This document shows, piece by piece, positions 4,412-31,547 of a stretch of DNA of 64,000 bases. This DNA is from Candidatus Electrothrix rattekaaiensis (GTDB lineage Bacteria; Desulfobacterota; Desulfobulbia; Desulfobulbales; Desulfobulbaceae), in NCBI GenBank assembly GCA_032595675.1, contig JAVQMD010000003.1:62001-126000 (forward strand). Reading direction: 5' to 3'. Below the pieces are notes generated by a model. It ran no database searches and was not told the DNA's origin. It worked only from the letters and a program-made list of their open reading frames with translations. Position 1 is the stretch's first letter. Every line of letters starts with the position of its first letter. Position numbers and translations under genes: made by a program.

Positions 4412-6589
4412 TTAAACAGCGTGTAAGGGCAGATTATAATGCCGCTTTCCTGTGGCTGCTGCAAGAGCATTTGCCACCGCAGGTGCGATGACCGGAGTGG
4501 CCGGTTCTCCGACACCGGTGGGTGCCTCTGGCGACGGAACAATATGCACCTGCACATCTGGCATATCTGGAAGATGCAGCACCTGATAATCGTGAAAATT
4601 ACTCTGCTGCACCCGGCCTTTGTCGAGCGTGATTTCACTGCCTGAAATCATAGCCAGGCCAAAGCCCATACCACCTTCCATCTGCGCTTTAATGATGTCA
4701 GGATTAACCGCAATGCCGCAGTCCACAGCAATAACTACCTTGTCTACCTTGAATGTGCCGTTCTCAACCGTGACATCCGCAACCATTGCTACATAGGATT
4801 TGAAGGATTTATGCACAGCAACACCGCGACCTTTCTGCTTGCCGTCTCCGGTGGAACTTGCCGGTACGTTACCCCAGCCAGCCTTTTCCGCTGCGAGTTT
4901 GAGAACCGCACTGTGGCGGGGATGCTCTTTCAGTAAGGCCAGGCGGTATTCCACCGGATCTTTACCTGCTTTAGCTGCCAGCTCATCAATAAAGGTTTCT
5001 ACAGTATAGGCAGTATGGGTGGAGCCAACAGAACGCCACCACTGAATAGGTACTGGTAATTCAGGAGAATGCAGTTCCACGAGCTGATTCGGTATCTGAT
5101 AGGGCTGATTGTTTGCGCCTTCCACTGAAGTCGGATCAACACCGCCTTGTATGGCAGCAGCAAGGGGTGTACCGCTCATGATTGACTGCCCAACGAGCCG
5201 GTGATGCCAGACTTTAGGCATACCGTCTTTGTCCAGAACAGCACGGATGCGGTGCAGGTTGAGTGGACGGTACCAACCGCCCCGCATGTCATCTTCCCGT
5301 GTCCAGACTAATTTCACCGGTACCTGCTTTTTTAAGCCTTTGGCGATATGCGCAGTTTCCAGCAGATAATCTGCTTTAGGGTTGGCTCGGCGGCCAAAGG
5401 AACCGCCTGCGTACAGCATGTTGATCTTGACCTGGTCCGGCTTCAGGCCGAACAGGGTTGCAAGAGCCCGCTGATCTCCGGTCTGCATCTGTTCGCCGTT
5501 CCATACTTCAGCACTGTCACCGTGATAATGGATAACGCAGTTTAACGGTTCCAGAGCAGCATGGGCCAGGAAAGGATACCGGTATTCCGCTTCCACGACA
5601 TTATCAGCTTTTTCCAGAAGAGCTGCAGCATCACCATCTTTGCGGGCAACAGCACCTGGTTTGTCTGCTAGCTCTGCATATTGTTGAAAAATATTCTCGC
5701 TGCCCTGTTTAAAGGCTTTGGATTCGTCCCAGTCAATCTTCAGAGCATCACGGCCCGTCTTTGCTGCCCAGAAATCTTTTGCCACCACAGCAACACCGGA
5801 GGGAATTTGGATAACATCCTGGACACCAACCACTGCCCGTGCTGCCTTATCGTCAACATTTTTGACAGTAGCACCGAACATCGGCGGATGGGCAACCACG
5901 GCAGTGAGCATATCCGGGAGCTGCACATCCTGGGTAAATATCGCAGTGCCGTTGATTTTTTCGCTGGTATCTTTCCGGGGTATCTTTTTACCGATCAGCT
6001 GAAACTGCGCCGGATCTTTGAGCTTGAGTTTTTCCGGCACCTGCTGTTTGCCAGCTGCCTCTGCCAGTTCACCCAGGCTCGCAGATTTTTCACCGTGACT
6101 GACTGTACCGTTCACCACTTTGATATCTGCTGCCTTCACCTGCCACTGTTCAGCTGCTGCATTGACAAGCATAGCCCGTGCTGCTGCCCCTGCTTCGCGC
6201 ATCTGCATCCAGGAGTTGGCAATAGCCGTGCTGCCGCCAGTGCCCTGCATATTGCCCCATAAGAGATTATTGTATCGTTTATTATCAGCAGGTGCTCCTT
6301 CCACTTTGATCTGCGTCCAGTCAGCGTCCAGTTCTTCCGCAATGATGGTGGCCAGGCCGGTATGGCTTCCCTGGCCCATTTCCAGATGTTTGGCAATCAC
6401 CGTGACCGTATTGTCTGTTCTGATCCGTAAAAAAGCATTAGGACTGAAAGGCATTGGGACTGGACTGCCATCTGCCTGAACAGTGCTTACTGCACCTTCC
6501 GGGACGGCAAAGCCCAAGGTCAATCCGGCACCTGCGGCCAAGCCCAGTTTCAAAAAATCACGACGGTCGATTGTACGTATTGCATGCAT
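4412..6589 (-). CDS. Molybdopterin-binding subunit of an isoquinoline-1-oxidoreductase-like hydroxylase (IorB-like)
   Basis: 725 aa, large subunit of the xanthine oxidase superfamily. It starts with a Tat signal (RRDFLKLGLAAGAGLTLGFA), so folded cofactor-loaded enzyme is exported to the periplasm. Family segments include GQGSHTGLATIIAEELDADW, GGSFGRRANPKADY and the C-terminal PTGVGEPATPVIAP, whose Glu is the expected catalytic base. Members hydroxylate N-heterocycles or oxidise aldehydes and pass electrons through the FeS subunit to cytochromes. The small FeS subunit is encoded 12 bases upstream, and maturation proteins follow. The substrate is not deducible. The length is close to that of IorB proteins with a complete Tat leader. 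Confidence 0.9.
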   Translation of the reverse strand: MHAIRTIDRRDFLKLGLAAGAGLTLGFAVPEGAVSTVQADGSPVPMPFSPNAFLRIRTDNTVTVIAKHLEMGQGSHTGLATIIAEELDADWTQIKVEGAPADNKRYNNLLWGNMQGTGGSTAIANSWMQMREAGAAARAMLVNAAAEQWQVKAADIKVVNGTVSHGEKSASLGELAEAAGKQQVPEKLKLKDPAQFQLIGKKIPRKDTSEKINGTAIFTQDVQLPDMLTAVVAHPPMFGATVKNVDDKAARAVVGVQDVIQIPSGVAVVAKDFWAAKTGRDALKIDWDESKAFKQGSENIFQQYAELADKPGAVARKDGDAAALLEKADNVVEAEYRYPFLAHAALEPLNCVIHYHGDSAEVWNGEQMQTGDQRALATLFGLKPDQVKINMLYAGGSFGRRANPKADYLLETAHIAKGLKKQVPVKLVWTREDDMRGGWYRPLNLHRIRAVLDKDGMPKVWHHRLVGQSIMSGTPLAAAIQGGVDPTSVEGANNQPYQIPNQLVELHSPELPVPIQWWRSVGSTHTAYTVETFIDELAAKAGKDPVEYRLALLKEHPRHSAVLKLAAEKAGWGNVPASSTGDGKQKGRGVAVHKSFKSYVAMVADVTVENGTFKVDKVVIAVDCGIAVNPDIIKAQMEGGMGFGLAMISGSEITLDKGRVQQSNFHDYQVLHLPDMPDVQVHIVPSPEAPTGVGEPATPVIAPAVANALAAATGKRHYNLPLHAV

Positions 6590-6601
6590 CAGGCTGCCTC
6601 C

Positions 6602-7063
6602 TTATGCTGATTTTTTTTCCGCAGCCGCATGAATACCGGCACGGATGCGGTGGTAGGTATTGCAGCGGCAGATATTATTCCCCATAGCCTTGTCAATGTC
6701 TGTATCGCCTGGTTTAGGGGTATGCTTCAGCAAGGCTGCTGCACTCATGATCTGGCCCGGCTGGCAATAACCGCACTGCACGACTTCCAATGTTTTCCAG
6801 GCTTCCTGGATAGCCTTACCTTCCGCTGTTTCTCCAATACCTTCAATAGTGGTAATCTGTTTCCCTGCGGCCAGTGAAACTGGCGTGGAGCAGGATTGGA
6901 CAGGCTGCCCGTCGAGGTGGACCGTGCAGGCACTGCACAGCCCGACACCGCAGCCGAACTTTGTTCCAGTCAGCTTGGCATGGTCACGAATCGCCCACAG
7001 TAGAGGCATATCGTCGGCAACATCCAGTTCATATTCAGTACCGTTGATGGTCAATTTGATCAT
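6602..7063 (-). CDS. Two-[2Fe-2S] small subunit of the molybdenum hydroxylase (IorA-like)
   Basis: 153 aa. The plant-type ferredoxin domain has [21 protein letters not shown] (4 Cys, residues about 38-60) and the C-terminal four-helix domain has CGYCQPG near 97 and CRCNTYHRI near 134, giving two [2Fe-2S] clusters. It has no signal of its own and is presumably carried out with the Tat-tagged IorB-like partner. As the first gene of the operon it begins at ATG 7061-7063 with AGGAGG upstream, just inside the tail of the uvrA relic frame. Confidence 0.92.
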
Positions 7064-7432: not shown

Positions 7433-7559
7433 CCTTAAAACAATTTATTCCCTTGCAAAAAAGACAAATCATTTCGTACAATAGATCTGTTTCTTATTTG
7501 CGGTAAGTAGTTTGCTGATCAGGGATAACCCAAAAGGAGTTCAACGAAGGAGAATTGCA

Positions 7560-9272
7560 ATGAAACTGAAGATGTTGGTCTACATCACTTTACTGCTGGT
7601 CTTGTCGGCTGGTGTTGTTCAGGCAGCTGAAGAAGCTACGTGTCTGAACAAGATAGGAGTGCATCCTGTTCATGAACCACTAACGAGCGCGAACGCTCTT
7701 TGGGACATGATGCGGAAAGATGAGGTCAGGAAGGATATTAAAGATGCGCTCAGTAGAGCAAAATGTCCCCCGGAGACAGGTGACTCATGCTCCAAGCTTG
7801 TTAAACCACTCAAAACCTTTTTTCAGCAGGATTTCAAAGTGGATAATTTTCGTCATCGTACATACCATGCTAAGGACTCTATCATTTTCCATTGGATGAT
7901 GTTCAGACCTGGAGGTGATTTTAAGAAAAAAATTGAGGTAGCGAAAAATATAAAATGGTGTGGAGAGAAGCTTCTTCATGCATACGAATTTGACGTAAAA
8001 GCTAACAGTAAAACTTACACCTTTACTGTACCGAAAGAGTGCGGAAATTTGGCGTTGTTGAAAGTAACTGAATGTCCCGATAATACATGCGAAAACTGTC
8101 CCGGCGACAATTGCCCTGAAGAGTGCAAACCGAAGAATCCATGCGAGAACTGTCCTGGTAACAATTGCCCTGAAGAATGCAACAAATGTCAGAACTGCCC
8201 CGGTGACAATTGTCCTGAAGAATGCAAGCCGAAGAATCCATGCGAGGATTGTCCCGGCGACAATTGCCCCGAAGAGTGCAAGCCGAAGAATCCGTGCGAG
8301 AACTGTCCTGGTAACAATTGCCCTGAAGAATGCAACAAATGTCAGAACTGCCCCGGCGACAATTGCCCTGAAGAATGCAAGTCGAAGAATCCATGCCCTA
8401 AAAATTGCAGAGAAAAATGTGCAAGCAACTCCTACAGCGAGGATTGTCAAACCTGCAAAAAACTCAACTGTATTGAAGTCCCGCCACCATGCCCGGACAA
8501 ACCATGCCCTAAAAATTGCAGAGAAAAATGTGCAAGCAACTCCTACAGTGAGGATTGTCAAACCTGCAAAAAGCTCAACTGTATTGAAGTCCCGCCACCA
8601 TGCCCGGACAAACCATGCCCTAAAAATTGCAGAGAAAAATGTGCAAGCAACTCCTACAGTGAGGATTGTCAAACCTGCAAAAAGCTCAACTGCATTGAGC
8701 CTCCCGAGAAATGTCCTAATGACTGTCGACAGAAATGCAAAGACGAATCCAACGGTGCAGATTGTCTGAAGTGCAAAGATCTCAACTGCATTCAGCTTGT
8801 CCCCTCTCCCTTCCACTTCATTGCCGATCTCGGCTATTACCGCCAGTCTGACCCGGCAGACTACCTCTTTGGTCGGGTTGGTATAGAATACAACCTCTCT
8901 GATAATGCCAGCTGGCTTGAAGGCGTATCTCTCCTGACCATGATCGGGGCCGCACCAAAAATCGGCGGTTCAGACGGGGACAGCGCGTTCCTGCTGGATG
9001 TAATAGCCCAGTATAACTGGTTACAGTCCTTCGGCAGATCACTGCCCACCCTGAGGGGATTCACCGGTCTCGGTCTCGGCGGCTGGTTCACTTCAGGCGA
9101 TACCGAAGATGATTCTGGAGACAGCGACTTGGATATCATAGCCAATATCGGTGTCAGGATTCTTGACAATCCCAATATGTCTATCTTTCTCGAAATGCGA
9201 AACGCAGTCGATGAACTGGATAGTATATCGGAATACGGACGATTCGGCGCAGGCGTGAGGTTCCAATTCTAA
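7560..9272 (+). CDS. Exported cysteine-repeat protein with C-terminal outer-membrane barrel
   Basis: 570 aa from ATG 7560, chosen because GAAGGAG sits 8 bases upstream and a signal peptide follows (MKLKMLVYITLLLVLSAG, cleaved after VQA). Residues about 20-175 form a globular region. Residues about 177-278 hold six units of the pattern C-x2-C-PGxN-C-PEE-C, and about 279-410 hold four units with CxxxCxxxC...DCxxCKxLNC, separated by Pro-rich linkers. The last 150 residues look like a small beta-barrel and end in RFQF, with the terminal Phe needed for BAM insertion. The Cys part would face the periplasm or surface. Metal binding or disulfide cross-linking is possible; no enzyme motif is seen. The family is not recognised. 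Confidence 0.8.
   Translation: MKLKMLVYITLLLVLSAGVVQAAEEATCLNKIGVHPVHEPLTSANALWDMMRKDEVRKDIKDALSRAKCPPETGDSCSKLVKPLKTFFQQDFKVDNFRHRTYHAKDSIIFHWMMFRPGGDFKKKIEVAKNIKWCGEKLLHAYEFDVKANSKTYTFTVPKECGNLALLKVTECPDNTCENCPGDNCPEECKPKNPCENCPGNNCPEECNKCQNCPGDNCPEECKPKNPCEDCPGDNCPEECKPKNPCENCPGNNCPEECNKCQNCPGDNCPEECKSKNPCPKNCREKCASNSYSEDCQTCKKLNCIEVPPPCPDKPCPKNCREKCASNSYSEDCQTCKKLNCIEVPPPCPDKPCPKNCREKCASNSYSEDCQTCKKLNCIEPPEKCPNDCRQKCKDESNGADCLKCKDLNCIQLVPSPFHFIADLGYYRQSDPADYLFGRVGIEYNLSDNASWLEGVSLLTMIGAAPKIGGSDGDSAFLLDVIAQYNWLQSFGRSLPTLRGFTGLGLGGWFTSGDTEDDSGDSDLDIIANIGVRILDNPNMSIFLEMRNAVDELDSISEYGRFGAGVRFQF
8088..8393 (+). repeat. Six tandem Cys-rich coding repeats (type 1)
   Basis: Alternating 54- and 45-base units encode CxxCPGxNCPEEC followed by KPKNP or NK. 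The spacing is always C-x2-C-x4-C-x3-C, giving 24 cysteines in about 100 residues. Near-identical codons between units point to recent expansion by slippage or unequal recombination. Confidence 0.9.
8394..8789 (+). repeat. Four tandem Cys-rich coding repeats (type 2), 111-bp period
   Basis: Three almost identical 111-base units and a diverged fourth encode CPKNCREKC...SEDCQTCKKLNC with a Pro-rich linker. The first three differ by only a few silent bases; the fourth (CPNDCRQKCKDESNGADC) is older. The different divergence of the units shows local amplification. Confidence 0.9.
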
Positions 9273-10071: not shown

Positions 10072-10223
10072 TACGGGCTGTATTTGAGCGTAGAATTTCG
10101 ACCATCTCAATTATTGTAACAGAAGCAAACAAGAGCTCACTCTCCCTGCTTGACCACCGCATAAAAAAAGGATATTATTTGCAAATAATTCCAGACCTAT
10201 TTAACCAATCAGGAGAAACTCGG

Positions 10224-11387
10224 ATGAGAAAAACGATGATGGTCAGTGCCTTCCTTGCGGGCACTCTTTTCTGCCTCGGACAGAATGCTGTCGGTGCGGA
10301 GAGCGAATGCAATGTTTTCGGCACATCACGATGGGGCGGGGAACAGATTTACAACAGCTGCGTGGAATGCTTAGGGCAGAGCAGGAATTGCGAGAAACGT
10401 TGTTTCGATACAAACGCCACCTGTACAGCTGTCGGCTATGACCGTTATGGTTTTCGCAGCACTGTGCAGGGGCCGCAGGCCAAAAAAGAACAACGGGCCA
10501 GAAAAAAGGCCGTCCGGCAATGTGAGCAACAAGGGTTAAGCAATTGCGCTGTTGATCGTTGTACAGAAGAGAAAACCCTACGACCGGAGAGCGTTGAGGT
10601 CTGCCGTTCTCAACCGGTGGCAATTGACCGGCCACATCGAGGCCGTAACGGGGGAAGAGAGAACTCAGCAGAATATCGTTGCGGTATTTTCCCGAAATCT
10701 CCCCGTGCATCGCAACGTGAATATCCGAGCTGCGAAACTTGTATCCAGGAAAACGGGCAATGCGAGGAACGTTGCGCAGAATCCGGTTATACCTGTACAG
10801 CTGTCGGCTCTCGTCCGCGCAATTTCCCTCAAACTGTCCAAGGTGATCTTGCCGATAACCGGCAGAGAGCGGAGCGAAGTGTCATGCAAAAATGTTACAA
10901 CGCTGGTCTCAACGGATGTGCCCTTGGGAAATGTAGCGAAACAATGCGCTTCGACCCTAACCAAGTGACTCCTTGTCAAACCCGAAGCCGGACCGGCAAT
11001 GTGAACGGCGGGCGAGGGAACAGAACATCTCCATCCCCGGTCGTTCCAAATGTAAGCGGCAGGAATGAGCACAGGAATCCCTCACCCCCGGTGGTTCCTC
11101 AGCCAACCCAAAAATATGTCAGTTCCTGGCAGCACCTCAAAGGGGATTGCGAGGGGAGTTCAAGCCCTAAGGTGGCTCAACAATGCGGTAACCGAGGATT
11201 CTGGCAAGGAATCTCTTGTCGGGTAACCTGGAGTGACGGAAGCGTGCAAGATCTGCACGGACAAGTTGACCTGATGGATTCCTACGGACGGGCTTATTGT
11301 ACCCGAGACTCTCGCCCTGCCCGCTTCAACTGCGTCAACAGATGCGATAACACCAATGGCTCCTTGATGACCCTATCCCGGCCATAA
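10224..11387 (+). CDS. Exported protein with two Cys-rich repeats, unknown family
   Basis: 387 aa from ATG 10224; AGGAGA lies at 10211-10216 and a signal peptide follows (MRKTMMVSAFLAGTLFCLG, cleavage near GAES). Two related domains of about 85 residues each carry C-x2-C, C-x3-C and TCTAVG (CVECLGQSRNCEKRC..TCTAVGYDRYG and CETCIQENGQCEERC..TCTAVGSRPRN) and end in CAVDRC or CALGKC. A Pro/Arg-rich linker leads to a third Cys-containing domain with CRVTWSDGSVQDLHGQVD. No catalytic motif is seen. It is probably periplasmic or secreted with several disulfides. It neighbours another Cys-rich exported protein but no operon link is visible because the hipBA relic lies between them. Confidence 0.7.
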   Translation: MRKTMMVSAFLAGTLFCLGQNAVGAESECNVFGTSRWGGEQIYNSCVECLGQSRNCEKRCFDTNATCTAVGYDRYGFRSTVQGPQAKKEQRARKKAVRQCEQQGLSNCAVDRCTEEKTLRPESVEVCRSQPVAIDRPHRGRNGGRENSAEYRCGIFPKSPRASQREYPSCETCIQENGQCEERCAESGYTCTAVGSRPRNFPQTVQGDLADNRQRAERSVMQKCYNAGLNGCALGKCSETMRFDPNQVTPCQTRSRTGNVNGGRGNRTSPSPVVPNVSGRNEHRNPSPPVVPQPTQKYVSSWQHLKGDCEGSSSPKVAQQCGNRGFWQGISCRVTWSDGSVQDLHGQVDLMDSYGRAYCTRDSRPARFNCVNRCDNTNGSLMTLSRP

Positions 11388-11525: not shown

Positions 11526-12659
11526 CTAAGGGCTGACAAGTCGGGCTACGGCAACCAACTGCTGGCGTCCGTTACCAAAGGGCGGATAACCGGCCCTGGT
11601 TGGTGTACGTTTATGCCAACGGGTTATCGAGGCTGCGGTCTCACCTCTTCGGCCATGCCCGTGAAAAAGCTCATAACTGACCAGTCGACCGGCTTTGTCC
11701 TTATGTATGCGCACCACCACGCCCACATGATCAATCCCGCCCCGTGACGCCAACAACCTGTTCACGGAAAAATTCTTATACAGCGAACCGTTGCGACCGA
11801 AAAACAGCACCACCCCGGGCCTGATTATATGAGACTGCTTCACTGCATTTTTAATAAGTACCAACTCTCCTCGCTCATGATACCAGCGGGCAAGGTCTCT
11901 GGAATCCCGATACTGCGCAAGAGATGGATATGCATGATCAGGGCAGCACTTTTTCACCCCCTGCAGGACTCGATGAAAGATTCCAGAGCAATCACTGAGC
12001 GGCCCTATACCGTACCGGATGGACCGGGACTCCAAAAATGCAACGGTTGTCCGCAATGCAGGTATCAGCCCCCCCTCACAGGCGACCCGACCATTATCCT
12101 TGTCAAAAACATCAGGAATAAATTTCTGCACAGACCTTCCCGGCGGCGCAATACGCTTCTTTGTTCGTAAAGGTTTCAACGAGACAACAGATAGGGGAAG
12201 GGCCTGCTTCTGTTCCGGCGGCGCAATATACTTCTTTTTACCCAAAGGTTTCAACAGGACAACAGGTTGAGGAAAAGTCTCCTTCTGTTCAGGAGCCATA
12301 CATATTATCGTCCCGCCCCCCGCAGGAGGAAGAAAGGGGAAAATGCAATATTGAGCATCCCGTTGGATATCTCGACATTGTTCATCAAATCGAATCTCTT
12401 CCTGCTCTGCTGTCTCTATTATCAAGACAGGGGAAAACTCAGCCTCAGCCTCAGGCTCAGCCAAGGTGCTGCAGGATTCAGGTTGAACCGGTTCTTTTTT
12501 TTCCGTTGGCAGCTCAGAAGGCACTTGCTGCTCCACAGGGATCGGTTCTTTTACCGGTTCCGGTTGTGAGCATCTCCCCAAAAGAAAAACCCCGGCCAAG
12601 GCCACTACAAGCAGGAAGACCTGGACAGGTTTCAAATGAAAAAAATCCGTAAATTTCAT
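11526..12659 (-). CDS. Membrane-anchored NlpC/P60-like putative peptidase
   Basis: 377 aa. An N-terminal hydrophobic segment (VQVFLLVVALAGVFLLGRC) anchors it; the Cys is not in a good lipobox because Arg is at -1. A Pro/Glu-rich stretch and a direct repeat (KKKYIAPPEQKQALPLSVV against TKKRIAPPGRS) follow. The C-terminal 170 residues have SDCSGIFHRVL and GGIDHVGVVVRIHKD, which match the Cys and His blocks of NlpC/P60 cell-wall peptidases. Peptidoglycan hydrolysis is inferred from these motifs only. It overlaps the upstream radical SAM gene by 4 bases, so they are co-transcribed. Confidence 0.6.
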   Translation of the reverse strand: MKFTDFFHLKPVQVFLLVVALAGVFLLGRCSQPEPVKEPIPVEQQVPSELPTEKKEPVQPESCSTLAEPEAEAEFSPVLIIETAEQEEIRFDEQCRDIQRDAQYCIFPFLPPAGGGTIICMAPEQKETFPQPVVLLKPLGKKKYIAPPEQKQALPLSVVSLKPLRTKKRIAPPGRSVQKFIPDVFDKDNGRVACEGGLIPALRTTVAFLESRSIRYGIGPLSDCSGIFHRVLQGVKKCCPDHAYPSLAQYRDSRDLARWYHERGELVLIKNAVKQSHIIRPGVVLFFGRNGSLYKNFSVNRLLASRGGIDHVGVVVRIHKDKAGRLVSYELFHGHGRRGETAASITRWHKRTPTRAGYPPFGNGRQQLVAVARLVSP

Positions 12660-25403: not shown

Positions 25404-25521
25404 AACGTAGCACATTTTTCGCAAGGAGTTTAACAGCACGACCGGGACAATGCATACTGCGGCTTTTTTGTCGGAGAAATATCTTCACCTCCGGGCCAGT
25501 ATAAACCGCCTAGGGGATCAA
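25404..25521 (-). pseudogene. Relic of a DUF2442 gene 3' end
   Basis: 118 bases closely match 36772-36889, the end of the DUF2442 gene at 36788-37060 (minus-strand reading DPLGGLYWPGGEDISPTKKP). It abuts and overlaps the stop codon of the giant helicase, whose TGA (25518-25520) lies inside the relic. Confidence 0.8.
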
Positions 25522-28500
25522 CAAAAAGAAGGATAGCACGCAAAAAACTCCTTAAAACAAACATTAGCCCGCAAGCTCTCCTCGTTTTGGGCAACAGCGG
25601 TGAAAAAGGTCTCGCTGCCCACGACAATGAGTTTGTGGCGGGCACGGGTGATGGCAACGTTGAAGCGGTTGGGGTTGTTAAGAAACTCGCCCAATACCTG
25701 ATCCGGGTCAGAGCAAGTGAAGCCAAACAGGATCACCTCGCGTTCCGCGCCCTGGATGCGCTCCACGGTGTCGATGAGGGGCAGGTCATCGCTATTGCCC
25801 AACAGCTCCGTCAAACGGCGGGTGATCCGATTATTTTGGGCGCGATGGGGCGAGATGAGCGCCAGCTGTTCCTTGTGCAGACCGTATTTGCTCAGTAGGC
25901 GATGGGCTAGGCAGGCCATGATTTCCGCCTCTATTATTGATTCCTGGCCGCAGCCGTGATGATCGGCACGGACCAGCACCACCGGTTTCTCGGGATCGAT
26001 TATCCTGTCCAGGGGGGCATTGCTGAGCCTGCCCTTGAGCGACAAGCGGGCAGTCGCATTTGCCGGGGCCGGGCGTAACCTGGAATCGTACCAGGTTCGG
26101 CTGGGGAAGGCGCAAATTTCCGCATTCATCCGATAGGTCAAATCCAGGAACACGCTCTGTTGTGGGTAGCGGTGCAGCATGAGAGTGAGCAGGGAGCGAC
26201 GGACCTCGCTTTCCAGAGCTTCATCATTTTTATTATCCCCTTGGTGTTTAACGTGGACAGAGTGGTCAATCGGTTCCTTCTCGACCGGAGCGGAACGGAT
26301 CACCGGCGGCAACTGATGCACATCTCCCAGAAAAAGAAAATTCCCCTTGCCATGAACCAAGCTCAGCATGGCCTGCGGCAGCAGGATCTGTGATGCCTCA
26401 TCAAAAATCACCCAATCAAAGGGTTTGGCAGGCAGCTTTTTGTTTTTCTGCAAATGAGCCAAACCATAGCCGGTGGCACCAAGAATGAGGTAGGGAGAGA
26501 GCATCACCTGCTCAGGATCCTCCAGCGGTTCCACCTGCATCTCGTCCTTGTTTTCATCAAACTCTGGCCCGTCTCTTCGGCCCCATTTGCAGCAACGGCC
26601 CGGAAAATCGGGTAAGGCATATTGATTGACCAGTTTGACCACCTTGCTGAGCACCTGATCAATGGCCTGATGGGTCAAGGCGCTGACGGCAATGCGGAGC
26701 GGCTCATCCCTTGCCTGGGCGTGACGGATCAGCGCGATTAAGATCCAGCCCAGCAGACTGGTCTTGCCGGTGCCGGGCGGCCCCTGAATCAGGCTCAAGG
26801 CATGGCGAAACGGCATTTTGAGGCCCTGTTGTTGGGAGGCATTTAACCCTGCAATCTTGCCCTCAGTGCGCAGCCAGCCGCTGATCCATTCCTGCCACTG
26901 CAAAGGCTGGGTAAAATCCCAGGCCCCGGCAAACAGGTCCACGAGGGGATGATGGACTTTGTCAGAATAAACGGTCTGCACCACCTTGATGAGCTTGGGC
27001 GTGGTCCAATCATCCGCATCTTCTTCCAACGAATAGGCCAGACTTTTCTGCAATTGGAGCGTGCCCCGTTGCCGCGAAGAGAGAGCCACCGATCCCTGGT
27101 GCGGCTCGTAGCTGTCCACGATCACCGGCATGCCGCTTTGCAGATCCTTCACGCCCAGAGGAACCAGCTTTAAAAAGTCACCCTGGCGAAACTTGGAAAC
27201 GCCAGATTCTGCACCATCCGCCACTTCAAAGAGATAGAGAAAGCGACCTTCATCATCCAGGCCGGTGCCGTTAAAATGAAGCGGCCCCAGGGCTCGAAAT
27301 CGCTCCACCCGCTCGGCCAGCGACAGCTCCTGCAAGTCTCTGATATCTTTTTCCTGAAAAGCCCGTTCCGCCTCGATAAAATGTTGATGGGCTTGGCCCC
27401 TGGATGATCCGGTTTGCGCGGGATCATCGAGATTCTCCCAAGTAAGGGCGACCGGCCGGTCGCCCCTACTCCAATCACTGCTCAGATGGGAGGTGATCCA
27501 TTGTTGAACCTGTCTGTTGATGTTAAGGATCGTGGCGAGATGGTCATCCGGTTGTTGATCCTCCGGTTGTTGATCCTCCGGTTGTTGATCCTCCGGTTGT
27601 TGATCCTCCGGTTGTAGGCGCAGATCCGGCAAAGGGTCAAAGTGAACAAGGGAGGCAGGAGCCAGTAACGTAGGGGCGATTGGCCGGTCGCCCCTACTTA
27701 ACCCCAAAACGCAGGCCAGATCATACAAGGTGAGCGTGGCGGGAATGGGCAGGGCAAAATGGTTGCCCAGCACCTGAGCAAGATCGGTCCAAGAAGGAGC
27801 AAGGCTGCAACGGAAAAGATTGCGCATCGGCCCATCCTCCATCATCGCTGCCCAGTCATTGATACCCTGCCGGATTCCTGAACCAAAAAAGAAAATATGC
27901 GGCGTGCCATTCTTGTCAGCAGCCTCTTGCCAGAGGTCAAGAAAACAGGTAGAAAAATCCCGCCAAACTGTAGGGGCAGGCCCCTGTGCCTGCCCGGTAG
28001 GCAAGGACGAACACAGGGGTTCGCCCCTACGGCGCTTAGCTGATGTATCCGCTGCCACCCAGGTGAATACCCGCATCTTCTCGCTTCGTTTGCTGACTCC
28101 AAAGCCCACGGCCTTGGGCAGCATGGTCACAGGGTCATTGAGCAGATGGACGAAAAAACAGGTTGTAATATGCGCGGGGAACAGATCAGTCGTTTGCCCG
28201 ATACGAGCAATTTTATTTTCTTGCAAAGAGGTGACAGCACATTGCAGACGCTCTCTTTGCGCGGGGCTGAAATCGGTGTTTACGGTTGTAGGGGCACGGC
28301 GCGCCGTGCCCCTACGATGTCCAGCGAACCAGGCCGAGGCCTCCCCAATATTCCGTAATCCCAAAGCCCGCATTTTCTCCAAAGCACCTTTGGAGAGCCG
28401 GGGAATGAACTGGATATCTTCTTCCTGCAAAGCCTGTTGATAACAGGAGTCAAAACAGGGGCAACTCAGGCAATGGGCTTGCAATTGCCACCCGGCCTGA

Positions 28501-31500
28501 TCCGGAGGATGCGAGAGACAGTGTGCAAAATTACGCAAAAGAGCGGGCAAGCTTGCCAGATACGGCTGGAGATCAAAGGTATAACGCTGGGGCGTATCAT
28601 CAAGGGGCGAGCGGATCAACAGAAAACCGGTGTCAGCAACTTGGGTGGCTTTGTTTGTGCCGACCAGCTCTTCTTCCCGCTCCAAAAAGGTCTTGAGCAA
28701 AAACGCATAAAAGGCCACCTGCCATTTTTGATGATACCGGGGCTTGGCAACGCTTTTAATGTCGCCCACTTCCAAAAAGATATGTTGCTCTCCGGCTAAA
28801 TCTCCGGTTGAAACACGGATGAGATCAGGAATACCGACCCCATCCAGTTGCTCCTTGCGAGTTGGGCCAAACAAGTCCGGCAAGAGAAACACGCCTTGGG
28901 CCAGATAGACGTTTCCTGTCAGATCCTTTTGCCCGAGAATACGCTGCAACCAATTCCGAGTTTCCGCATAACGGGACTCCAAGGAACGTGGCATCCCGGA
29001 CTGATCCTGTTCACGGACAATATGAAATTGTTCTTTGAGCCCAGCAAGCTCGGCCATAATCTCCCGCTCAAAGGCCAAGCCCCTTGCCAAACGAAGGCCT
29101 GCGTACTCGTCGTCCACTGGGCTTTGTTGGGGCGGCTGATCTTCGGGCCGGAGAAAAGAAGCGCAAAAGTAGCGATGACATTGGTGATGACGAAAATATT
29201 CACCGATAATAGTGCCGGTCAAGGGCCTGTTCCGGTAGCGTGCATCCTTACTAGGCAGGAAGATAGGGGCCACCGAGGCAACAGCTCTATCACCTCCATG
29301 CCGTTCTTTTTCCAAAGATAAAAAGGATGGGCAGTGACAAGGGATGTCAAGAAAGGCAGGCTCCTCTGGATGAAATTCAAGATTGCGGGGATCGCCTGCC
29401 ACTATTTCGGAAGAACCGTCTTTGTATTGCTGGAAAAAATCAATCAGCCGCTGATCCAATATAAAATCAGTGAGTTCACGGCGCAAGATTTCTGTCGGCA
29501 AGGTCGTGCAAAAGGCATTGAGCGGGAACATCACCCGCATCGCCTTGAAATGGCGTTTGATCCAAGCCGTAAAATCATCGCGTTGCAAGGGCAGGCACAG
29601 CTTTTCAAAACGGATCCACTGACTGCACACAAGGCCGATCTCATCGGACAGCACCTCAATATCTTCTGATTGTGCCGCAAAATATTCCTTAACACTCCAT
29701 GCCAGCAGCATATTGCCCACTGCGCCCAGATAGGTGCGGTATTGAAAAGATCCTTGATCGACAAGGACCACCTCAATGCCGTTATCGAGCAGGACAGCCT
29801 TGGCATCCTGGTCCAACTGCTCGCGGATCAGGTTCCGGCTCCGAGAAAAGAGCCCGGCAGCAGCCTCGTTGTCAGCAGAATTTGTTGATTTGAGCACTGC
29901 ACGCATGGCTTGCGCCGTCTCCAAAGAAACATGGCACCCCATGCCGAGCCACAGCAATTCTTTGTCATCCAGCCGCTCCAAGGTAGGCTCGGCCAGAACC
30001 CGTTTATCAGCCTTGGTGTTAATCCATAAAATACGGAGCCGCCGACCAGCGAGCAAGACCTTGTCGCCAGGATCAAGCTGCTTGACAATGGTTTGCGGGA
30101 TATCAGCCACGGCCTCACCCGCCACATCCAGCTTGTATGCAACCTCGGTTTCTGGAAAATTGGCCCAGATCCGATGCTCCACCAGGGCGTCCCAATAGCG
30201 CCAGCCCCCTGTATATAAGCCCTTGAGATTGTCCTTGCGTAGCCATTGTTTCTCCACCAGCGATTGGAAGATGTTCTTAAGCCAAGTTGCCGCTTCCTCG
30301 TTGCCTGGATCAGTACTCGGATCAACATCAGGATCAAGAAAGAGATTCTGCACGGCTGCCAAAGAAAGACGCTTTTTTTCATACAGACATGAAATGATCT
30401 GCTGGCTCAGCACGCTGGGTAACATCTTGGGCAAGGCTGCTTCCACCCGTCCCTGCCGGGCCAAGCTGAGCAAGGCAAGAAAACGCAACACCTGCTGTCC
30501 TGCCCGCTCGCCCCGACACAGCCCCCAAAAATGAATGGCCTTTTGCCGCCGATTGGCCCGACCGATGCGTTGCAAAAAGGCGGCAACCGAATCAGGCGGC
30601 TCAAACAGGAGCACCGCATCCACATCCCCCACATCGATGCCCAGCTCCAGGGTGGAGGTGGCAATGCAGATTGATCTGCTTTGCTTGCGAAAACTGCGTT
30701 CTACGAGCTGGCGCTGTTTGGCAGTCAGATTGGAGTAATGCAGATGCGCCATGCCGCGAAACGAACCGAGCCGATTCAACAGCCCGAAAATTTTATCACA
30801 CCGTCCCCGACTGTTGGCAAAAATCAAAATCTTGTGATAGCCCCATTCGCGGTATAGATCATCCAGCAACCCGATCAGCTCCTGTTCATCATTTTGAAGA
30901 TGCACCAACCTAGGCACGATTTCCCGATTCACCTTGTCGGCCAAGAACACGGTATCAGGAGAGCAACCCAAAAATCGGCCCACTTCCTCGGGGTCGGCAA
31001 GGGTGGCGGATAAGGCGATTCGTTGCACGCTTTGGCTGATACGCCGTTCCAAACGTTGGAGCAGATAGACCAATTGACGGCCACGATATTGATGGATAAA
31101 GGAATGGGCTTCATCAATAATCACGGTGCGCACCCGTGCGAGAAAACCGCGCAGATCCTGATTTGCACTGCCCAGCATCACGTCCAGCGACTCGGGCGTG
31201 GTGAGCATCAGGGCCGGGCTGCCACCCCCTGTATGTTTGACGTCACCGGTGCGAATGGCAAAACCAAGCCCTAGGCGTTCGGTGACAATTGATTTGAAAC
31301 GCCGATAAATATCAGCGGCCAGGGCTCGGGTAGGGACGATATAGAGGACGGACTCGTTGGCCCCAGAACGGATGACCCGCTCCATACAAGGGGCCAGCAC
31401 GGCTTCGGTTTTACCGGAGCCGGTGGCAGATTGGATAATAAGATCTTTCTGCGCCAGGACCGGTTCAATGGCCTGTTGCTGGATGGGATGCAGCTGCTGG

Positions 31501-31547
31501 AATGCGCCGTAAAAGGCGCGATAGGTGTTTGGGAGAAGGTGGATCAA
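25518..31547 (-). CDS. Giant DEAD-helicase / RecB-like nuclease / Upf1-type helicase fusion
   Basis: 2009 aa. N-terminal SF2 helicase: ATGSGKT at 41-47, PTRAL, DEAH at 145-148, RIGRANRR near 330. Middle: a RecB/Cas4-like nuclease (CHRYFCASF near 790, GIPDLIRV and FLEVGDIKS at about 905-935, CLSCPCFDSC near 1031), consistent with an iron-sulfur PD-(D/E)XK nuclease. C-terminal SF1 (Upf1/Dna2-like) helicase: GPPGTGKT at 1589-1596, DEAS near 1716, GDVHQLPP, VERIQGAERE, FNVAITRARH. The only possible start is TTG at 31545-31547, without a good ribosome site, next to relic DNA, and the stop is in relic DNA too, so both ends may be altered. Four palindromic repeats and a 15-bp tandem repeat are translated within it. 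DNA or RNA processing, probably defence, is inferred. Confidence 0.85.
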   Translation of the reverse strand: MIHLLPNTYRAFYGAFQQLHPIQQQAIEPVLAQKDLIIQSATGSGKTEAVLAPCMERVIRSGANESVLYIVPTRALAADIYRRFKSIVTERLGLGFAIRTGDVKHTGGGSPALMLTTPESLDVMLGSANQDLRGFLARVRTVIIDEAHSFIHQYRGRQLVYLLQRLERRISQSVQRIALSATLADPEEVGRFLGCSPDTVFLADKVNREIVPRLVHLQNDEQELIGLLDDLYREWGYHKILIFANSRGRCDKIFGLLNRLGSFRGMAHLHYSNLTAKQRQLVERSFRKQSRSICIATSTLELGIDVGDVDAVLLFEPPDSVAAFLQRIGRANRRQKAIHFWGLCRGERAGQQVLRFLALLSLARQGRVEAALPKMLPSVLSQQIISCLYEKKRLSLAAVQNLFLDPDVDPSTDPGNEEAATWLKNIFQSLVEKQWLRKDNLKGLYTGGWRYWDALVEHRIWANFPETEVAYKLDVAGEAVADIPQTIVKQLDPGDKVLLAGRRLRILWINTKADKRVLAEPTLERLDDKELLWLGMGCHVSLETAQAMRAVLKSTNSADNEAAAGLFSRSRNLIREQLDQDAKAVLLDNGIEVVLVDQGSFQYRTYLGAVGNMLLAWSVKEYFAAQSEDIEVLSDEIGLVCSQWIRFEKLCLPLQRDDFTAWIKRHFKAMRVMFPLNAFCTTLPTEILRRELTDFILDQRLIDFFQQYKDGSSEIVAGDPRNLEFHPEEPAFLDIPCHCPSFLSLEKERHGGDRAVASVAPIFLPSKDARYRNRPLTGTIIGEYFRHHQCHRYFCASFLRPEDQPPQQSPVDDEYAGLRLARGLAFEREIMAELAGLKEQFHIVREQDQSGMPRSLESRYAETRNWLQRILGQKDLTGNVYLAQGVFLLPDLFGPTRKEQLDGVGIPDLIRVSTGDLAGEQHIFLEVGDIKSVAKPRYHQKWQVAFYAFLLKTFLEREEELVGTNKATQVADTGFLLIRSPLDDTPQRYTFDLQPYLASLPALLRNFAHCLSHPPDQAGWQLQAHCLSCPCFDSCYQQALQEEDIQFIPRLSKGALEKMRALGLRNIGEASAWFAGHRRGTARRAPTTVNTDFSPAQRERLQCAVTSLQENKIARIGQTTDLFPAHITTCFFVHLLNDPVTMLPKAVGFGVSKRSEKMRVFTWVAADTSAKRRRGEPLCSSLPTGQAQGPAPTVWRDFSTCFLDLWQEAADKNGTPHIFFFGSGIRQGINDWAAMMEDGPMRNLFRCSLAPSWTDLAQVLGNHFALPIPATLTLYDLACVLGLSRGDRPIAPTLLAPASLVHFDPLPDLRLQPEDQQPEDQQPEDQQPEDQQPDDHLATILNINRQVQQWITSHLSSDWSRGDRPVALTWENLDDPAQTGSSRGQAHQHFIEAERAFQEKDIRDLQELSLAERVERFRALGPLHFNGTGLDDEGRFLYLFEVADGAESGVSKFRQGDFLKLVPLGVKDLQSGMPVIVDSYEPHQGSVALSSRQRGTLQLQKSLAYSLEEDADDWTTPKLIKVVQTVYSDKVHHPLVDLFAGAWDFTQPLQWQEWISGWLRTEGKIAGLNASQQQGLKMPFRHALSLIQGPPGTGKTSLLGWILIALIRHAQARDEPLRIAVSALTHQAIDQVLSKVVKLVNQYALPDFPGRCCKWGRRDGPEFDENKDEMQVEPLEDPEQVMLSPYLILGATGYGLAHLQKNKKLPAKPFDWVIFDEASQILLPQAMLSLVHGKGNFLFLGDVHQLPPVIRSAPVEKEPIDHSVHVKHQGDNKNDEALESEVRRSLLTLMLHRYPQQSVFLDLTYRMNAEICAFPSRTWYDSRLRPAPANATARLSLKGRLSNAPLDRIIDPEKPVVLVRADHHGCGQESIIEAEIMACLAHRLLSKYGLHKEQLALISPHRAQNNRITRRLTELLGNSDDLPLIDTVERIQGAEREVILFGFTCSDPDQVLGEFLNNPNRFNVAITRARHKLIVVGSETFFTAVAQNEESLRANVCFKEFFACYPSFC
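27442..27469. repeat. 28-bp palindromic repeat inside the helicase gene
   Basis: GTAAGGGCGACCGG and its near-complement arm CCGGTCGCCCCTAC. Read on the minus strand it contributes SRGDRPVALT to the protein. Confidence 0.9.
27552..27611 (-). repeat. Four perfect 15-bp coding repeats (QPEDQ)
   Basis: Four copies of ttgttgatcctccgg, followed on the protein by a variant QPDDH. The tract lies in the variable linker between the nuclease and the SF1 helicase, flanked on both sides by palindromic repeats. Slippage in units of five codons keeps the frame. Confidence 0.95.
27670..27697. repeat. 28-bp palindromic repeat inside the helicase gene
   Basis: Arms GTAGGGGCGATTGG and CCGGTCGCCCCTAC. It encodes SRGDRPIAPT in the same frame as the copy at 27442. 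Confidence 0.9.
27970..28030. repeat. 61-bp composite palindromic repeat inside the helicase gene
   Basis: Two hairpins in tandem with outer ends GTAGGGGC and GCCCCTAC, as at 868-944. On the minus strand it gives RRGEPLCSSLPTGQAQGPAP, about 20 residues not expected in a helicase core. Confidence 0.9.
28288..28315. repeat. 28-bp perfect palindrome inside the helicase gene
   Basis: GTAGGGGCACGGCG and its exact complement arm. It encodes RRGTARRAPT in the same frame as the other copies. Confidence 0.9.

Follow-up and report, generated by a model that had tools for sequence, protein, structure and literature searches.

Cable bacteria carry a family of cysteine-array proteins with a predicted outer-membrane barrel, and among the genomes that we searched this family is found in cable bacteria only. 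One member is encoded in a 64,000-nucleotide stretch of Candidatus Electrothrix rattekaaiensis (GenBank assembly GCA_032595675.1, contig JAVQMD010000003.1, positions 62,001 to 126,000 of the forward strand), hereafter the window. An original prediction made from this stretch described cysteine repeats displayed by an outer-membrane barrel and considered the case of a cable bacterium as host. The genus, Ca. Electrothrix, shows that the host is one, and the family proves both wider and more closely tied to cable bacteria than was first suggested. We distinguish type A proteins such as the window protein, in which an N-terminal domain precedes the array and barrel, from type B proteins, in which the array stands directly before the barrel with no N-terminal domain (360–436-residue frames with 30–37 cysteines). 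Sequence comparison suggests that the window gene is a rapidly changing member of the family and that the conserved member is another gene, type B. We tentatively favour the reading that these are cable-bacteria-specific envelope proteins forming disulfide-stapled or cross-linking periplasmic stalks anchored in the outer membrane.

Distribution and conservation of the cysteine array

A type B profile recovered array and barrel together in all 13 cable genomes (8 Electrothrix, 5 Electronema), the gene being split over contigs in two of them (G005 and G088). Searches were confined to the phylum, and an 'absent' array means one not detected: sequence profiles understate array presence, and fast-changing arrays can escape them. 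Among 73 genomes of the taxonomic family, the profile matched 21, comprising the 13 cable genomes and 8 with the barrel only, in which every frame was read and holds 2–8 cysteines. Extending the search to 257 genomes of the order (the 73 included) gave 60 matches, 13 with the array and 47 without; the latter begin at position at least 145 of 351 and so span the barrel and the segment preceding it. In the 244 non-cable order genomes, which include 60 from the same taxonomic family, we detected no array. One frame was read in each of 22 of the 39 barrel-bearing order genomes outside that family, and no array was seen; 20 of these frames have 1–11 cysteines before the barrel, the others being those of G056 and G147. 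A broad spread in unrelated bacteria, which the original prediction had named as evidence against itself, was not found by this homologue search of the phylum (array in 13/13 cable and 0/244 other order genomes).

An array profile run against 395 genomes of the phylum matched one, the window's own genome, and the window array found no match in the other cable genomes at E up to 1, despite orthologues there that bear diverged arrays. Run on the 13 cable genomes at E up to 1, the type B array profile found 22 matches: 13 type B genes, two pieces of split genes (G005, G088), five secondary hits within those frames and two weak ones (E 0.11 and 0.33). It gives no score on the window array. A contig search with the barrel alignment yielded 13 loci, including those of Ca. 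Electrothrix aarhusensis (L037), E. marina (L049) and Ca. Electronema GS and KV.

Across ten type B rows, all 30 ungapped cysteine columns are invariant; of the other columns in the array 33 of 122 are, and in the barrel 59 of 142. Six further cysteine columns contain gaps. The array cysteine counts are all even (36, 36, 30, 36, 36, 34, 36, 36, 30, 30). The two type A orthologues match the window protein at 86–95% identity in the barrel and 53–54% in the N-terminal domain, and their arrays match at 27–30% of positions outside the cysteines, with 51, 52 and 53 array cysteines in the three proteins. Cysteine density is kept as the remaining array sequence changes.

Across the wider set of relatives the barrel is common and the part before it varies. 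Type A occurs in three of the eight Electrothrix genomes (the window, L009 in G006 and L010/L037 in G003), the Ca. Electrothrix aarhusensis frame (L037) being 614 residues long. One of the five Electronema genomes (G016, L014/L042) combines the N-terminal domain with a shorter cysteine-rich part, with 23 cysteines in the frame. A type C joins the N-terminal domain to VPGPERIVEK-like repeats or a short linker, and non-cable relatives join it to PKD-like or proline-rich linkers. Two of these, from Desulfoprunum benzoelyticum (L047) and Desulfobulbus sp. Tol-SR (L048), share the window-type N-terminal domain and a homologous barrel at 43% identity, whereas a PKD-like linker, so called by sequence, replaces the cysteine array and whole frames hold only 6–7 cysteines.

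A tree built from 63 barrel rows unites the 31 from cable bacteria in a single clade (97/84); nested inside it, the 16 array-bearing rows make up a clade of their own (98/88). A 54-row tree agrees (98/89 and 98/87, respectively). Because the array-bearing rows are monophyletic, a single gain of the array suffices. Some long branches among the non-cable rows are unsure, and the trees exclude eight fragments or near-duplicates (L061, L075, L114, L115, L117–L120) together with identical or short barrels. Further cable frames with the barrel or N-terminal domain (12 regions), added to the 63-row tree, contain 1–8 cysteines and no extra array.

Architecture and predicted topology of the window protein

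The window gene and the parts of its product are as follows.

7560..9272, plus strand: whole gene, type A cysteine-array barrel protein of 570 residues with 56 cysteines (open frame, translation, orthologues in two other Electrothrix genomes)
7560..7625, plus strand: signal peptide, residues 1–22, Sec type, no lipobox (by eye; orthologue and paralogue starts are alike)
7626..8072, plus strand: unnamed N-terminal domain, residues 23–171 (phmmer across relatives; AlphaFold2 predicted local distance difference test score, pLDDT, mostly 80–89)
8088..8378, plus strand: six short cysteine units, C-x2-C-x4-C-x3-C, residues 177–273, 24 cysteines (cysteine spacing)
8394..8789, plus strand: four long cysteine units, C-x3-C-x3-C-x8-C-x2-C-x4-C, residues 279–410 (cysteine spacing, pattern count)
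8805..9269, plus strand: predicted C-terminal eight-strand outer-membrane barrel, residues 416–570, ending in RFQF (AlphaFold2, Foldseek, VIA, family alignment A1)

The frame opens with ATG at 7560, seven bases downstream of an AAGGAG read by eye at 7547–7552, and its stop codon ends at 9272. The array (residues 172–410) holds 51 cysteines, in ten units plus three cysteines outside them. The original prediction was right about ten regularly spaced units, slightly undercounted the cysteines at about 45, and gave the correct order of signal peptide, array and barrel while missing the 149-residue N-terminal domain between the first two. This domain ends in VPKECGNLAL, a motif common to non-cable Desulfobulbales relatives.

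The cysteine pattern of the long units is nearly the same as that of type B units. The motif C-x(2,3)-C-x3-C-x(6,10)-C-x(2,3)-C-x4-C occurs four times in the window protein against a mean of 0.0015 in 2,000 composition-preserving shuffles of it. This six-cysteine unit, placed next to the barrel, recurs 3–5 times in each of nine type B proteins. The two type A orthologues lack it, their units holding eight cysteines. At the DNA level, successive copies of the long unit are identical at 109/111 and 80/81 bases and the two 51-residue halves of the short-unit stretch at 144/153 bases, so the window array has undergone recent duplication, in keeping with the earlier suggestion of an expanding array. 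The fourth long unit, identical at 53/78 bases, is older than the other copies.

The window protein has no match in Pfam or NCBIfam up to E 1. When PDB sequences were searched with the whole protein and with the profiles of barrel and array, the best E was 0.08; the sole match for the array there, STE50 (E 0.08–0.16), yields no known relative of the array. Fold searches were filled by the barrel, and the folds of the array and N-terminal domain were hence barely probed by them.

AlphaFold2 places eight strands within residues 418–569 of the window protein and the same eight at 225–373 of the Electronema aureum type B protein, predicted in each case to be antiparallel and to close into a barrel of the OmpA/NspA fold. 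Foldseek matches the window barrel to OmpA, OprF and NspA at E 1e-4 to 3e-4. VIA-align gives Z scores to NspA, OprF and OmpA of 14–15 for the window barrel, or 14–16 when type B is included, over 124–144 residues. The likeness is one of fold: identity to the window barrel is 12–14% in the VIA alignments, none of the 12 members of alignment A4 matches a Pfam barrel family at E up to 1, and barrel alignment A1 matches no PDB sequence up to E 1. Like these barrels, the window protein ends in an aromatic residue. It differs from them in that its barrel is C-terminal and its extra-membrane part N-terminal, and no OmpA-type peptidoglycan-binding domain was recognised in a Pfam scan of it.

OmpA-type eight-strand barrels have both termini in the periplasm. 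With eight strands predicted, both ends of the window protein, and hence its N-terminal array, would be periplasmic; on this model the array most likely lies inside the periplasm and not on the surface. Of the claim that an outer-membrane barrel displays the array, the outer-membrane anchoring apparently stands, and surface display is not supported, given the predicted strand number. Export, also part of that claim, appears to hold, judging from the Sec-type signal peptide read by eye.

Readings of the array

The mechanism that we propose begins with Sec export, after which the C-terminal barrel would insert in the outer membrane and leave the N-terminal domain and array hanging in the periplasm as a stalk. 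In this oxidising compartment the evenly spaced cysteines would form disulfides, probably through a VKOR-type pathway, stapling each unit into a stiff, resistant element and possibly cross-linking neighbouring stalks or partners. The result would be a tough mesh reaching from the outer membrane to the ridge compartment or fibre sheath, with type B as its conserved core and the window gene as a member that varies by lineage, its array sequence subject to turnover. In favour of this reading stand the OmpA/NspA-type barrel fold, the distribution of the array, the invariant cysteines and even counts of type B, the steady cysteine number of type A and the single clade of array-bearing rows. Each cable-bacteria ridge contains a periplasmic fibre (PMC6307468), and abundant disulfides have been proposed as one reason for the resistance of the fibre sheath to sodium dodecyl sulfate (SDS) and EDTA (Boschker 2021, PMC8238962). 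VKOR is a disulfide-forming enzyme; a match to it above the Pfam cut-off is present in 13/13 cable genomes versus 13/60 other genomes of the taxonomic family, with a further 8 of the 60 below the cut-off (p ~1e-7, uncorrected for shared ancestry, which weakens the contrast); DsbB is found in 1/13 cable genomes. Since VKOR occurs in every cable genome searched, a disulfide-forming pathway is plausible there.

A parallel is offered by the chlamydial outer membrane complex of MOMP, OmcA and OmcB, cysteine-rich envelope proteins thought to be disulfide-linked into a periplasmic peptidoglycan-like layer (PMC6812762). Cable bacteria differ in that they are thought to retain a peptidoglycan layer (PMC8238962), and here array and barrel share one chain. 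The analogy is functional, and we claim no sequence relation.

Several observations weigh against a disulfide-stapled stalk. VKOR is not specific to cable bacteria, and type A is present in only three of the eight Electrothrix genomes. Even cysteine counts would also follow from units of four or six cysteines without disulfides, and odd totals occur in one type A orthologue (57) and one Electronema relative (23). The array is modelled poorly, with block pLDDT of 34–69 and short helix pairs in the long units of the window protein, and values mostly of 60–83 with a last block at 46 in type B. Prolonged SDS is reported to unwind fibres into 3.1 nm strands, and none of six reductant or denaturant terms occurs in the main text of that study (Digel 2025, PMC11976967); because strands unwind without a named reductant, they are not obviously held by disulfides. 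With these points counted, we regard the stapled or cross-linked stalk as the likeliest of the readings, though a tentative one.

The main rival is a metal–thiolate array, in which periplasmic cysteines bind Ni, Fe, Zn or Cu and act as a metal store or loading site that may serve the nickel–sulfur fibres. The paired C-x2-C and C-x3-C spacings of the array would suit it, Ni, S and Fe are reported to co-localise with the fibres (PMC11976967), and type B adjoins nickel-import (nik) genes in 8/8 Electrothrix genomes. The nik genes follow type B on the same strand in all eight, with CbiM/NikM 0.9–1.1 kilobases away in seven; in G002 type B stands beside a NikL-like gene only, with CbiM on another contig, and the nik contig of G005 carries just the barrel end of type B. 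Pfam recognises CbiM and DUF4198 in L105, the locus of the window's own genome, and CbiQ in L101; NikL is so named from its position and from Hiralal 2024, its Pfam matches being weak. This neighbourhood has been drawn before, in a figure whose legend lists nifJ, pgp, fd and hyp. around the nik locus (Hiralal 2024, PMC11247825). In the five Electronema genomes no such adjacency was seen, CbiM lying on another contig in four and not being found in the fifth, and the window gene and its genome's only CbiM are on different contigs. In that genome, moreover, where type B occupies L105 6699–7826 (C1:950698–951825), a 14-pair terminator-like stem, sought in this genome only, and a ferredoxin-like frame convergent with type B stand between it and nikM, so we rejected a type B–nik operon there. 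The convergent frame lies on the minus strand between 7826 and 8745 of L105 (CTGCEECVGSCP...CLGCETCVEVC) and by eye looks like a ferredoxin of the 2[4Fe-4S] kind; an antisense trace of it is also seen in L039 and L101–L104. Rfam at gathering scores detected no known RNA element near the nik genes in four loci.

Chemistry and export also bear on metal binding. The cofactor seen by Raman is like nickel bis-dithiolene and unlike known nickel sites, for example the cysteine-ligated site of NiSOD (PMC10959288), and an unfolded Sec/BAM substrate would need to be metallated in the periplasm. Overall we consider a metal–thiolate array unlikely. Iron–sulfur clusters were a further candidate, prompted by some L037 units that read C-x2-C-x2-C-x3-C, and would be improbable in a Sec-exported outer-membrane protein. 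Metallothioneins resemble the array in their dense paired cysteines within short repeats. The window protein departs from them in having a signal peptide and a membrane anchor and no Pfam or NCBIfam match, and its metal binding is only putative.

It is rather unlikely that the array serves only as one of several interchangeable stiff linkers between N-terminal domain and barrel, its thiols merely lending local stability. In paralogues, VPGPERIVEK or KEVIKYVDRPV-like repeats do take the place of the array (L003, L017, L028, L030, L133–L137, L140), and PKD domain matches occur in 2 of 12 members of alignment A4 (PKD_4, best E 0.0012). Yet type B, present in 13/13 cable genomes, has no N-terminal domain to space and still keeps every ungapped cysteine column across two genera. 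A role in sulfur chemistry, with thiols or disulfides taking up polysulfide or buffering sulfide and oxygen stress in the periplasm, seems quite improbable to us. In cable bacteria sulfide is oxidised and a gene for a periplasmic rhodanese is present (PMC13047784), and so dense an array would be a large sink for sulfane sulfur; against this, no catalytic domain is recognised in the window protein, no sulfur-transfer gene was seen among seven window neighbours scanned, and the array was found in no non-cable genome of the order.

Which proteins make up the conductive fibre system of cable bacteria is not established. The cysteine-array barrel family has no named domain, occurs in both cable genera (13/13), was not found in the other order genomes searched, is very rich in sulfur and is likely to sit in the right compartment; it may help to build the envelope compartment that houses the electrical fibres. 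Comparative genomics is reported to have given no nickel-binding candidate for fibre formation, and a new family would escape homology methods (Digel 2025, PMC11976967). Within the accessible text of open literature on cable-bacteria cysteine, disulfides, proteomes and membrane proteins, we found no description of such a family; a 2019 cable-genome paper and a 2025 preprint on the nickel framework of the fibres, both known from citations, could bear on this. As a long shot, these proteins could be a missing structural part of the conduction machinery, with type B lining the outer membrane on its inner side beneath each ridge, binding or delivering nickel (proposed because of its nik neighbourhood in Electrothrix) and holding or insulating the nickel–sulfur fibre, and with strain-specific type A arrays tuning contact. 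This link to conduction is an unproven candidate role. Even if purely structural, the family provides a concrete marker of the cable envelope, for which the relevant gene is type B and not the window gene.

Related loci and window neighbours

In Ca. Electronema aureum GS the type B gene occupies L040:4332–5453. The paralogues at L003 (541–1956), L017, L028, L030, L133 and L140 carry long VPGPERIVEK repeats where the array would stand, and their barrel is immediately preceded by a conserved CCPxC. Two frames keep the N-terminal domain with such repeats and depart from the barrel plan. At L006 2225–4516 (C4 of the window's own genome), a 764-residue frame with VPGPER repeats has no barrel match, and the next frame resembles, by eye, a metallophosphatase; at L139 254–1954 (G006), 567 residues with VPGPER-like repeats end in a part that by eye resembles an alpha/beta hydrolase in place of the barrel. 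At L042 2797–5453 in Desulfobulbaceae S01.Bin068, a gene with N-terminal domain, cysteine-rich part and barrel stands in tandem with a type B gene.

Around the G006 orthologue the neighbours of the window gene are not conserved save for two scattered matches, and the window context therefore yields no function. Beside the gene, at 4412–7063 on the minus strand, lies a Tat-signal molybdopterin-binding large subunit with a [2Fe-2S] small subunit. At 10191–11387 on the plus strand is a likely exported, cysteine-containing protein of two similar halves with a weak DUF4189 match (E 0.85). Two minus-strand frames contain short tandem repeats: a 75-base unit is present twice at 12140–12290 within the frame 11526–12659, and a 15-base unit is repeated 4.6 times without mismatch at 27547–27615 within a 2009-residue frame (25518–31547).
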